Shown piece after piece: positions 55,592 through 60,649 of a DNA stretch of 64,000 bases. This DNA comes from Prochlorococcus marinus str. MIT 0919 (lineage in GTDB: Bacteria > Cyanobacteriota > Cyanobacteriia > PCC-6307 > Cyanobiaceae). Where the stretch lies: positions 1,629,598 to 1,693,597 of the forward strand of contig NZ_CP114779.1 of assembly GCF_027359375.1 (NCBI RefSeq), in the 5' to 3' direction. Every line of letters starts with the position of its first letter. Positions within the stretch are counted from its first letter, which is position 1. Below the pieces are notes generated by a model. It was not told where the DNA came from and did not search any database. It was given only the letters and a program-made list of their open reading frames with translations. The position numbers were made by a program, and so were the translations under genes.

Positions 55592-56488
55592 CTAAGTTAT
55601 CGAATGATCTCTAAGCATCCAAAAACCAGAAAATTTCTCTTCTTCTGGGGAACTTTGAATTGCAATAAATTGAAGCCCATCTAGTTGATCTTTTGAACTT
55701 AGGAGGTCTTTTTGTGCTTTTTCTGAGTCTAGTTTGCTCATGTCTGTAACAAGCCATCTGTCTTCTTGCCCAGCTTCTAGTATTAATTGATTCTCTTCTA
55801 TAACTAGTTTTACTGGTTCTATACCACTAAGCCAGGCTGCCAAAGCGAAAGATCGATTCTTGCTAAATAGGCGTAAGCCAGGAACAGGGACCAGGGGTTG
55901 AAGCTTTGGTCTGATTGGCAAAAGCCCTTTAAATTCTATCGGCCAGTCTTTGGAGTCTCTAAGGCTTTCGAGATCAAGTGAAGCAAAATTCCAAGCGTCT
56001 CCTCTTAGCGCTTCTGGGAGGGGTATTGGAGTATTAAGGATCCTTGCAGGAGGAGGAGCTATAGGGCCAGCCATATAGCCAGGGAGATTTGGATAGACTG
56101 TCTTTTCTCTTTCTGCAAGCCAATCAAGCAAAGAGTATGTTCTTCTGCTCTCTTTAACCTCTAGGCCCAATGATTCAGCTGCTTTCTTTATCATAGTCTT
56201 CATAGAGGCTCGCCAAGACCTAATTCTTTGAGGAGGCCCCCACCCTTGTTTTTTGGCTTCTCTGAGTGCTTCTTCTAGTGCTGTCGAAAGCCATATTGAA
56301 TTGACTTCACTTGCAGGACATTGTTTCTCCCAGCGAAAAGTTTCTTCGTTTGAGATATCTTGACTGCTTGATATCAGTAGTTCCCACCTTTTTTTGCCAT
56401 CAGCCTCAATGATTGGTCGAGAGTAAAAGTCAACTTCCCAATCTGCTGATTTGCCTTTTTGGAGCGCTTTGGTTTGAGTGAAATCCAT
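55592..56488 (-). CDS. Tab2/Atab2 family RNA-binding protein
   Basis: This 298-aa protein matches the cyanobacterial/plastid Tab2 family (DUF1092). The start WEVDFYSRPIIEADGKKRWE and the central LLDWLAEREKTVYPNLPGYM, with GPIAPPPARILN, are family blocks. In Chlamydomonas Tab2 promotes translation of psaB. In cyanobacteria the target is not settled. The start codon overlaps the stop of rps1b as TAATG, so the two RNA-binding proteins are translationally coupled. Confidence 0.92.
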   Translation of the reverse strand: MDFTQTKALQKGKSADWEVDFYSRPIIEADGKKRWELLISSSQDISNEETFRWEKQCPASEVNSIWLSTALEEALREAKKQGWGPPQRIRSWRASMKTMIKKAAESLGLEVKESRRTYSLLDWLAEREKTVYPNLPGYMAGPIAPPPARILNTPIPLPEALRGDAWNFASLDLESLRDSKDWPIEFKGLLPIRPKLQPLVPVPGLRLFSKNRSFALAAWLSGIEPVKLVIEENQLILEAGQEDRWLVTDMSKLDSEKAQKDLLSSKDQLDGLQFIAIQSSPEEEKFSGFWMLRDHSIT

Positions 56489-57759
56489 TATTCAGATGTA
56501 TTGTCTTCATTTTTTTTGAGAAGGTCTTTTACTTTCTTTGCGCGTTCTTCTGCTTCAGCTAAAATTTTCTCTTTCTCTACAAGTATCTCACCTGGAATGC
56601 CCTCAAGCATCGCTGTGTTTAGGCCAATTCTCCCTCTCCTCGGATCGAGTTCAGTAATAATGGCTTTGATTAATTCGCCTTGAACAAAAATTTCTCTTAA
56701 AGATCTTATGCTGCCATTCGTAACCATTGATTGATGCAAAAGTCCGCTAATACCACCTAAATCAATAAAGAAACCATAAGGTTTAATTGCTAAAACTTTC
56801 CCCTCAACAACTTGGCCAATTTCTAATTCTGCAAATTTTGCAGTAATTACAGCTTTCTTTTCAGAAAGAATTAGTTTTCTTGTATCTGGATTTACCTCTA
56901 TAAAGGCAACCTTAAAGCTTTTGCCTACTAGCGATTCATGGTTTTGACCTTGCTCAAGTTGAGAGCGAGGTATAAAGCCTCGCAGACCTTCTAAGTCACA
57001 AGTAACACCTCCTCTATTAAAACCATTAATTTTTACTTCTGTAACTTTTCCAGCTTTTTCTTGTTTCATTACTTTCTCCCAGCTTTTTCGCAGTTCAAGT
57101 GCTCTACAGCTAATAGTGACCATCCCATCTGCATTCTGTTCACGAGTGACTAACACTTCAACTTCCAGTCCTTTCGGGAAACGCTCTTTTAGATTTGTAA
57201 TTACACCTAGCCCGCATTCGTTTTTAGGCATAAACCCTGGTGCTTTTCCACCTATGTCTACATAGATTCCATCACTCTCAACACCTATTACGGATCCTTT
57301 TGCGATTTCTCCCGTTGCCCCTACAGGCTCGTTTTCATTTAAAGCTTCTAAAAATGCATCCTCATCAAAATCAAAATCATCGACACTCCTTTCAAGAAAA
57401 CTAGCTTCTTTGAAATTTTCTGACTGAATGGATTCTTTTTCAAGAAGATCAGCCATCGAAAGATTTTCTATAGACTCAAGTTCTAATTCGTTTGAATAAG
57501 TTTTGTTATCAGAATTTGATAACTTTGTTGGCGATTTTGGTAGTTGAAGGTTCTGAGGAACGTCGTTTTTTGGAGCATTTATGTACTCATTGTTTATGCG
57601 TTCTTCTTCTTCTTTTTGAAGATTTTCTTGCTCTTCCTTTCTACTGATATGCATTACCTGCAAAGGTTTGCGCGCATTTCGCGGGGCCTTTGAGGGCGGG
57701 TTAGGCCTATTTGGTTGAGTGCTTCCTGGTTCAGCCATATTCCCCTGGGGGGTTGTCAA
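56488..57759 (-). CDS. rps1b: Ribosomal protein S1 homologue B, three S1 domains
   Basis: This 423-aa RNA-binding protein has three S1 domains. They begin with KGSVIGVESDGIYVDIGGKA (about 155), then KVTEVKINGFNRGGVTCDLE (about 240), then VEGKVLAIKPYGFFIDLGG (about 325). The first 140 residues are a charged, Asn/Glu/Ser-rich extension without a fold. It is the S1-B (Nbp1-like) form rather than the main S1, which is not in this window. The ATG at 57759 is fixed by upstream stops. It overlaps the tab2 start. Confidence 0.87.
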   Translation of the reverse strand: MTTPQGNMAEPGSTQPNRPNPPSKAPRNARKPLQVMHISRKEEQENLQKEEEERINNEYINAPKNDVPQNLQLPKSPTKLSNSDNKTYSNELELESIENLSMADLLEKESIQSENFKEASFLERSVDDFDFDEDAFLEALNENEPVGATGEIAKGSVIGVESDGIYVDIGGKAPGFMPKNECGLGVITNLKERFPKGLEVEVLVTREQNADGMVTISCRALELRKSWEKVMKQEKAGKVTEVKINGFNRGGVTCDLEGLRGFIPRSQLEQGQNHESLVGKSFKVAFIEVNPDTRKLILSEKKAVITAKFAELEIGQVVEGKVLAIKPYGFFIDLGGISGLLHQSMVTNGSIRSLREIFVQGELIKAIITELDPRRGRIGLNTAMLEGIPGEILVEKEKILAEAEERAKKVKDLLKKNEDNTSE

Positions 57760-57799
57760 TGAGTCATTCTTGCAGGCAACGTTAAATTAATTCTCTAAA

Positions 57800-57805
57800 A
57801 GGAGG
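57800..57805 (+). promoter_or_regulatory. Shine-Dalgarno for the ATT-start creatininase gene
   Basis: AGGAGG is a full match to the anti-Shine-Dalgarno and lies 8 nt before ATT 57814. It is the strongest ribosome site I saw in the window, and no ATG, GTG or TTG is at a suitable distance. Confidence 0.72.
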
Positions 57806-57813
57806 CGATTTCA

Positions 57814-58647
57814 ATTAATTCTAAATTTCGACGTTTTGATTATTTAAGTTGGCCCGAAGCTTCTCAAGCAGCTTCAAAAGAGGGATCTACTTTGGTTTGG
57901 CCATTTGGTGCTTGTGAGCAGCATGGACCTCATTTGCCTTTGAATACCGATATTTTGTTTGCTGAAAGAATCCTTACGGAGGTTTTAAATCGATTGCCTG
58001 ATGAGATGCCTATTTGGATGCTTCCTCCTCAGGAAATAGGCTTTTCTCCGGAACATACAGGTTTCCCTGGAACACTTACTCTTTCAGCAGATTTGATGCT
58101 GGGCCTTGTCAGTGAGATTGGTAATCAGCTTGCTTTGATGAAAGTTAAAAGATTAATTTTTTTTAACGCTCATGGTGGTCAGATAGGACTTTTGCAAACA
58201 ATCGCAAGACAGTTAAGGAAAGAATGTCCATTTATGGCTGTCTTGCCTTGTTTCTTATGGAGCGGTGTAGAGGCTTTAAAGGATTTGCTCCCTAACAGAG
58301 AAGTAGAGGAAGGGCTTCATGCCGCTTTAGCAGAAACAAGTTTAATGCTTTCTCTGCAATCTGAATTGGTTGGTAATGCCAGACCATTTGACGGTGATGA
58401 AAATTCTTTCCCAAAACCTCCTATTCCAGAAGGCTGGAGTTTAGAAGGCGCTGCACCATATGCATGGCTTACGAAAGACATCAGTTCTACAGGGGTTGTG
58501 GGTGATAGCAGAGGGGCAAACTATGAACTGGGGGAAAGGTTGCAAGAAGCCTTGATAGATCATTGGACTAAGCTTTTTTTAAATTTGATGAACAGTGATT
58601 GGCCTCCTTTAAACCCTCTAAAAAGTTCAAATAGCAATAAGGACTGA
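57814..58647 (+). CDS. Creatininase-family amidohydrolase with apparent ATT start
   Basis: The 277-aa reading (NSKFRRFDYLSWPEASQAAS after the initiator) fits the creatininase family. The block WPFGACEQHGPHLPLNTD holds the metal Glu and His, GFSPEHTGFPGTLTLS the next His, and NAHGGQIGLL and AALAETSLM the remaining ligands. The frame opens after TAA at 57796-57798 and has no ATG, GTG or TTG before TTG 57892, which would cut off the first strand. ATT at 57814, 8 nt after AGGAGG, is the best initiator. The next gene is ado. Confidence 0.82.
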   Translation: MNSKFRRFDYLSWPEASQAASKEGSTLVWPFGACEQHGPHLPLNTDILFAERILTEVLNRLPDEMPIWMLPPQEIGFSPEHTGFPGTLTLSADLMLGLVSEIGNQLALMKVKRLIFFNAHGGQIGLLQTIARQLRKECPFMAVLPCFLWSGVEALKDLLPNREVEEGLHAALAETSLMLSLQSELVGNARPFDGDENSFPKPPIPEGWSLEGAAPYAWLTKDISSTGVVGDSRGANYELGERLQEALIDHWTKLFLNLMNSDWPPLNPLKSSNSNKD

Positions 58648-58718: not shown

Positions 58719-59447
58719 ATGCAAACTCTTGAATCTTCTAAGGTTGCGGTTATTGGTGATTTAGCTGGTAATGCGGAAAGCTTGCCTGACTTCACTTCCG
58801 AAAAATATAAAGATGCTTACAGTCGTATCAATGCGATTGTTATAGAGGGGGAGAAGGAAGCCCATGACAACTATGTATCAATAGGAACTCTTATTCCTGA
58901 GAAGGCAGAGGAGCTTAAAAAGCTTGCAATCATGGAAATGCGACATATGAAGGGATTTACAGCTTGCGGCAAAAATCTTGGTGTTATTGCTGACATGCCT
59001 TTCGCCAAAGAATTCTTTTCTCGTTTGCATGGGAATTTTCAGAAGGCTTTAAAAGAAGAAAAAATCACTACATGCTTCTTAATTCAAGCCATTCTTATAG
59101 AGGCTTTTGCTATCTCGGCATATCACGTTTATATACGTGTCGCTGACCCCTTTGCAAAGAAAATTACTGAGGGAGTTGTAAAAGACGAGTATTTACATCT
59201 CAACTATGGCCAAGAATGGCTAAAGGCCAATCTTAAGACTTGTAAGGAGGAGTTGATAAAGGCAAACAAAGAGAATTTGCCAATAATCAAGTCAATGCTT
59301 GATCAGGTTGCGGAAGATGCAGAAGTGCTTCAAATGGATAAGGAGGAACTAATGGAGGAATTTATGATTGCTTATCAGGATTCTTTATTAGAAATGGGCT
59401 TGGATTCAAGAGAAATAGCTAGGATGGCTTTAGCAGCGATAGTATGA
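58719..59447 (+). CDS. ado: Aldehyde-deformylating oxygenase (alkane synthase)
   Basis: This di-iron enzyme converts fatty aldehydes into alkanes and formate. The metal ligands are visible: EGEKEAHDNY near residue 45, MEMRHMKGF near residue 73 (ExxH), ILIEAFAISAYHVY near residue 128 and KDEYLHLNYGQEWL near residue 157 (ExxH). The 242-aa length matches cyanobacterial ADO. aar follows 158 bp downstream in the same direction, the standard alkane gene pair. Confidence 0.97.
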   Translation: MQTLESSKVAVIGDLAGNAESLPDFTSEKYKDAYSRINAIVIEGEKEAHDNYVSIGTLIPEKAEELKKLAIMEMRHMKGFTACGKNLGVIADMPFAKEFFSRLHGNFQKALKEEKITTCFLIQAILIEAFAISAYHVYIRVADPFAKKITEGVVKDEYLHLNYGQEWLKANLKTCKEELIKANKENLPIIKSMLDQVAEDAEVLQMDKEELMEEFMIAYQDSLLEMGLDSREIARMALAAIV

Positions 59448-59605: not shown

Positions 59606-60649
59606 ATGTTTGGACTAATCGGACATTCAACAAGTTTTGATGATGCCAAAGAAAAGGCAAAAGGCTTGGGATATGAACATATTGCCAAGGGAGACCTTGA
59701 TGTTTGGTGTAGTGCCCCTCCTCAACTTGTGGAGCATGTAAATGTTGTAAGTGCTATAGGTAAGCGTATTGAAGGAGCTTATATAGATTCTTGTTTTGTT
59801 CCAGAGATGCTAGGTCGTTTTAAAACTGCAAGAAGAAAGGTCTTAAATGCTATGGAACTTGCTCAAAAGAAAGGCATCAATATCACCGCCTTAGGGGGTT
59901 TTACATCAATAATTTTTGAAAATTTTAATCTTCTGCAGAACAAACAAGTAAGAAATACCACTCTTGAATGGGAAAGTTTTACTACTGGCAACACTCATAC
60001 TGCTTGGGTTATTTGCAGGCAGTTGGAAATCAATGCACCCCTTATAGGAATTGATCTGAGAAAGGCTCGTGTCGCTGTAGTGGGGGCAACTGGAGACATT
60101 GGTAGTGCAGTTTGCAGATGGTTGTCTGAAAGAACAGGGGTTGCAGAGCTTTTATTAGTTGCTAGGCAACAGAAGCCTTTACAAGATCTTCAAAAGGATC
60201 TTGGTGGAGGCCAAATACTTAACCTGGAAGAAGCTTTACCTCAGGCTGATGCAATTATTTGGGTTGCTAGTTTGCCAAAGACTTTGGAAATCGATAGATC
60301 TACATTAAAGAATCCTTGTTTGATGATTGATGGTGGATATCCTAAGAATCTAGATTCCAAGTTCAATGGGTCAGGCATTCATGTCTTAAAAGGGGGGATA
60401 GTCGAATTCTTTACAGATATCGGCTGGAATATGATGGAGCTTGCTGCAATGGATAAGCCTCAAAGGCAAATGTTCGCTTGTTTCGCAGAAGCAATGCTTT
60501 TAGAGTTTGAAGAATGTCATACCAATTTCAGCTGGGGAAGGAATAACATCACCCTTCAAAAAATGGACTTTATCGGAGAAGCCTCAGTTAGGCATGGTTT
60601 TTCTGTGTTAGGCCTAAATGAGGCCAGTCTTCAGGCAGCCATTGCTTGA
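59606..60649 (+). CDS. aar: Long-chain acyl-[ACP] reductase
   Basis: AAR makes the fatty aldehyde that ADO uses. The start [20 protein letters not shown] is typical of the 340-aa cyanobacterial AAR. The NADPH motif [20 protein letters not shown] lies near residue 153. [11 protein letters not shown] and [20 protein letters not shown] are family blocks. The stop overlaps a possible TTG start of accA (TTGA at 60646). ado, aar and accA therefore form one unit that joins fatty-acid supply to alkane output. Confidence 0.96.

Follow-up and report, generated by a model that had tools for sequence, protein, structure and literature searches.

A putative AUU/AUC start codon behind a strong Shine-Dalgarno sequence in a creatininase-family gene of Prochlorococcus

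Experimentally supported AUU and AUC start codons are few in bacteria, and in the literature we searched none was described in cyanobacteria, Prochlorococcus included. By precedent, translation from AUH starts is weak and subject to repression by IF3, the examples being infC, pcnB, sigR, cvfC1, and ccpN (PMC5472188, PMC9764084, PMC13009471), and Staphylococcus aureus reporters with AUH starts yield about 10–30% of the output of AUG (PMC13009471). The creatininase-family gene described here resembles Escherichia coli infC and pcnB in having a near-cognate AUU start that would limit translation (PMC5472188, PMC9764084), but it encodes a metabolic enzyme, belongs to a cyanobacterium, and has AUC more commonly than AUU among its orthologues; its Shine-Dalgarno (SD) sequence is also very strong, whereas that of E. 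coli pcnB is poor. The AUU of E. coli infC serves feedback by IF3 (PMC5472188, PMC9764084). We looked for an unusual start codon at infC in the genome that holds our window (the whole 64,000-nucleotide stretch of DNA analysed), but the gene begins with ATG, and autoregulation by AUU as in E. coli is therefore not directly transferable. Closer in architecture are S. aureus cvfC1 (AUU) and ccpN and infC (AUA), which likewise combine a conserved AUH start with a strong, extended SD sequence (PMC13009471), although these are cases from Bacillota that involve regulatory or small proteins and IF3 and were proven by ribosome profiling, whereas ours is drawn from comparison. Streptomyces sigR (GTC) likewise has a non-canonical start, one that sets a low dose and is repressed by IF3 (PMC5472188); codon, gene, and phylum all differ, and the IF3 dependence proven for sigR would here be expected by analogy.

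The open frame occupies 57799-58647 of the forward strand (282 codons) and is bounded upstream by an in-frame TAA (57796..57798, same strand). As the preliminary description had it, the frame contains no ATG, GTG, or TTG until the TTG at 57892..57894. An SD sequence, AAGGAGG (57799..57805, forward strand), would pair with the 3′ end of the genome's own 16S rRNA (GGCTGGATCACCTCCT, which includes the usual CCTCC), and we verified that AGGAGG lies 8 nt ahead of the proposed start, ATT at 57814..57816 on the same strand. The resulting coding sequence would run from 57814 to 58647 (forward strand; 277 codons plus stop). The claim that this is the best ribosome site in the window did not hold up: other AAGGAGG sites fall within the window's range. 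Taken alone, the pairing of an SD sequence with ATH is no more than chance would give, AAGGAGG-N4-8-ATH occurring 93 times in the genome and the reversed pattern 81 times. What lifts the present pair beyond chance is that it heads a frame lacking a canonical start, the sole such case found on either strand of the 64-kb window, and that it is conserved. Among the 60 loci returned by genome-wide pattern searches none resembled a second case; one candidate, L259, was rejected because its frame stays open only through being cut by the locus edge. Folding of the leader RNA around the start revealed no structure beyond that of shuffled sequences (z = +1.0).

To place the start we aligned orthologues from Prochlorococcus and Synechococcus (named genomes, the genus, the family, two other genera, and extra stretches), a set of 153 distinct sequences and 149 distinct proteins that may include a few species twice. 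Offsets were counted from the E of the EQHGPH motif (57916 in the window), which places 57814 at −102 and 57808 at −108, and for most of the family the alignment from start to motif is free of gaps. In Synechococcus and LLIV-type Prochlorococcus an ATG stands exactly at −102, the position of ATT 57814, and 37 loci in all carry ATG there. Where no ATG is nearby (n = 49), the codon at −102 is ATC in 37 loci, ATT in 9, and GTG in 3, and is nothing else. A large genus whose genomes are small has its ATG at −108, without an SD sequence, and in loci with ATG at −108 the −102 codon is TTT (42), ATT (7), TTG (5), or also TTC, AAT, TCT, AAG, or CAT; judging from this column, the constraint on −102 vanishes once an ATG is available at −108. 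The 46 ATT/ATC loci vary on either side, with −108 being ATT (41), TTT (3), or AGT (2) and −99 being ATT, AGT, ACT, or AAT, so that ATY is invariant at −102 alone. Across these loci the canonical codons found at −24, −72, −111, and −117 are inconstant, and 5 of the 46 have no ATG, GTG, or TTG whatever from codon −111 to the EQHGPH motif. The gene accordingly has the marks of a non-canonical AUH start: no canonical codon stands at the true start position, the ATG codons of orthologues fix that position, and both the codon and a strong SD sequence are conserved from species to species. The start codon at −102 changes in other lineages too, L191 (genome G033) having GTG in place of the ATG of its sister L190.

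Initiation at TTG 57892, the earliest canonical codon of the frame, would shorten the protein by 26 residues, and 34 of the 46 ATT/ATC loci have TTG or a different canonical codon at −24. We nevertheless regard initiation there as very improbable and rejected it as the start. Twelve of the 46 lack a canonical codon at −24; downstream of −102, a canonical codon is not met in L009, L012, L016, and L109 until 8 codons into the active-site motif region, and in L034 not until 26 codons into it. None of the Prochlorococcus and Synechococcus orthologues, whose N-terminal alignment had been proposed as a check, starts at the equivalent of TTG 57892. Moreover, the codons ahead of this TTG evolve as coding sequence. 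Among 29 close relatives the ratio of synonymous to non-synonymous changes was 84:1237 from −150 to −102, 1002:606 from −99 to −60, and 1125:318 from −60 to −24; no comparable synonymous excess was found in the shifted frames after −102, and third-position variability begins at −102. By this measure codon-type substitution sets in at −102 and is absent upstream. The PF02633 match sets in before TTG 57892, at residue 15 of the frame, and solved creatininases likewise extend upstream of this codon. Query residue 10 aligns with residue 8 of the creatininase 1q3k, so the N-terminus would be of normal length if translation began at 57814; taken together, the alignments to Pfam and PDB already fix this end of the protein. 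It had been proposed that a TTG 57892 start would remove the first strand. Such a start does shorten the N-terminus, excluding the segment KFRRFDYLSWPEAS, but because TTG 57892 encodes the L of TLVWPFGA, what is lost is the conserved RRFDYLSWPEAS segment and not the first strand.

Other codons close to ATT 57814 could in principle be used. An alternative ATT (57808..57810, forward strand; offset −108) is ATT in 41 of the 46 loci and corresponds to the ATG at −108 of other clades, and in some relatives upstream codons overlap the SD sequence: TTG stands at −117 in twelve loci, and at −111 three ATT/ATC loci (L002, L003, and L017) carry a GTG, within or adjoining the SD sequence, that could serve as the start there. 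However, ATT 57808 lies just 2 nt after AGGAGG, its counterpart is TTT or AGT in five loci, the canonical −111 and −117 codons are absent from the window and from most relatives, and LLI-like loci have a stop at −114. We thus think a start at 57808 or at these upstream codons highly unlikely. That ribosomes reach the frame by shifting out of another one upstream, or that an ATG is concealed by a sequencing error, is less credible still, to the point of being negligible. There is a short ORF in another frame just upstream in the window (ATG 57758 to TAA 57784), but it terminates ahead of the SD sequence, its ATG is not kept in relatives, and no coding signal precedes −102. As for a sequencing error, which had been named as a possible refutation, we excluded it by checking orthologues, because dozens of independent genomes, single-contig assemblies included, share the absence of ATG. 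ATT 57814 is thus well supported by comparison as the start.

The strength of the SD sequence follows the start codon. A duplex energy of −5.9 kcal/mol or stronger was found in all 46 ATT/ATC loci and in 15 of 96 ATG loci, with the caveat that orthologues are related and counts of loci are not counts of independent events; a rank test of SD energy between the two groups gave p of about 1e-17, a value that ignores kinship among the sequences. P. marinus is among the organisms in which SD sequences are scarce (PMC10783764), which makes a kept strong SD sequence notable. What comparison by itself shows is the position of the start, the loss of canonical starts, the conservation of ATT or ATC at this one codon, and the presence of a strong SD sequence every time.

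The gene tree groups the ATT/ATC rows in a single, well-separated clade (46 rows, 43 of them ATT/ATC and three with ATG at −108; SH-aLRT 94), and a tree of the neighbouring S1-domain, aldehyde-deformylating oxygenase (ADO), and acyl-ACP reductase (AAR) genes, from which the creatininase-family gene was left out, recovers the same clade with support of 0.93. L036 lies outside it in both trees. This locus, from Prochlorococcus AG-409-G20, has an ATT start with AAAGGAGGCGATT, near-identical to the window, and AAGGAGG is present; its likeness to the window would reflect either convergence or recombination, and the AUU/AUC start seems to have been gained separately there. Inside the clade ATT and ATC interchange, with no return to ATG, GTG, or TTG at −102. 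Some relatives within the clade or beside it have acquired a new ATG at −108 (L010, L022, and L102) or at −111 (L077), and L022 and L102 have lost the strong SD sequence as well. The pattern fits either a single gain from which these lineages later escaped through a new ATG or two gains, and L036 adds a separate gain in each case; support inside the clade is too low to choose between the two.

The mechanism that we propose begins with a 30S subunit that would be positioned by the unusually strong SD sequence AAGGAGG, whereupon the initiator tRNA would read the near-cognate AUU (AUC in relatives) and translation of the creatininase-family gene would proceed from ATT 57814, presumably with fMet. 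IF3 would discriminate against the near-cognate AUH, and the strong SD sequence would only partly offset the weak codon, so protein output is predicted to be low and sensitive to IF3. As a whole explanation of the locus, a start at ATT 57814 with a strong SD sequence and low, IF3-sensitive translation is in our judgement very probable. Weak output and dependence on IF3 are the parts of it that lean on precedent, the E. coli, Streptomyces, and Staphylococcus genes arguing for translation that would be limited by IF3 and low or conditional; a link to control by initiation fidelity is plausible on the same analogy. That AUU or AUC has been kept so long beside a strong SD sequence suggests a protein deliberately made slowly or conditionally, and would point to selection as opposed to a tolerated relic.

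The relic reading nonetheless deserves weight. Under it the start is the true one, but a single ancestral ATG to ATY mutation was neutral and the strong SD sequence merely rescues an unregulated gene. One main clade explains nearly all cases, the genomes are AT-rich as ATT itself is, which favours drift from ATG to ATT and so counts against our explanation, and in such AT-biased genomes changes of G to T or C are easily fixed. Arguing mildly the other way, ATT and ATC have been swapped within the clade without reversion to a canonical codon that is only one base away, and L036 shows the same arrangement of ATT and AAGGAGG outside the clade. We doubt that the start is a neutral relic but consider it a real possibility. 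Returning to regulated initiation, we suggest with somewhat less than even confidence that this enzyme gene, which diverges from the S1-domain gene and precedes the alkane-pathway genes, is kept by selection under initiation-fidelity control throughout a major branch of low-light Prochlorococcus, AUU or AUC with a compensating SD sequence making its output responsive to IF3 or to the status of the 30S subunit, and that the switch evolved on two or more occasions, some lineages having since reversed it with a new ATG two codons upstream. Because dozens of genomes from this highly abundant phototroph conserve the arrangement and sister clades provide natural ATG controls, it offers a ready comparative system for the trade-off between SD strength and start codon. 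There is also a practical consequence, as gene callers restricted to ATG, GTG, and TTG will truncate or miss the creatininase-family protein throughout the clade.

The protein belongs to the creatininase superfamily, scoring 214 bits against PF02633 (gathering cut-off 31.3), and falls below the curated cut-offs of both the strict creatininase model TIGR04448 (76.6 bits; cut-off 235) and the MftE model TIGR03964 (118.2 bits; cut-off 172). It shares a fold family with the creatininase of Pseudomonas putida (PDB 1q3k, 1j2t), and the EQH...D and NxH motifs align, but where creatininase has GHYEN the window protein has AHGGQ and thus lacks the Glu after the second metal-site His. By these sequence criteria the assignment stops at creatininase-family hydrolase. 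A second creatininase-family gene, 29–33% identical, is present in genomes of the window's genus (L004, L005, and L006).

Downstream on the forward strand lie ADO (58719..59447; PF11266) and a gene at 59606..60649 that is probably AAR, a name given from its position beside ADO, as Pfam finds in its product only dehydrogenase-type NAD-binding domains. The divergent neighbour (56488..57738, reverse strand) encodes a homologue of ribosomal protein S1 with three S1 RNA-binding domains. A promoter scan of the intergenic region gave no convincing site for the creatininase-family gene. Between the divergent genes, at 57766..57776 (not assigned to a strand), is a conserved block, ATTCTTGCAGG, with the consensus ATTCT[TG][GA]CAG. 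Nearly every Prochlorococcus and Synechococcus locus has the block, ATTCT[TG][GA]CAG(G), at about −150, the exceptions being those of the small-genome genus that has ATG at −108; either the S1-domain gene or the creatininase-family gene may use it as a promoter or operator.
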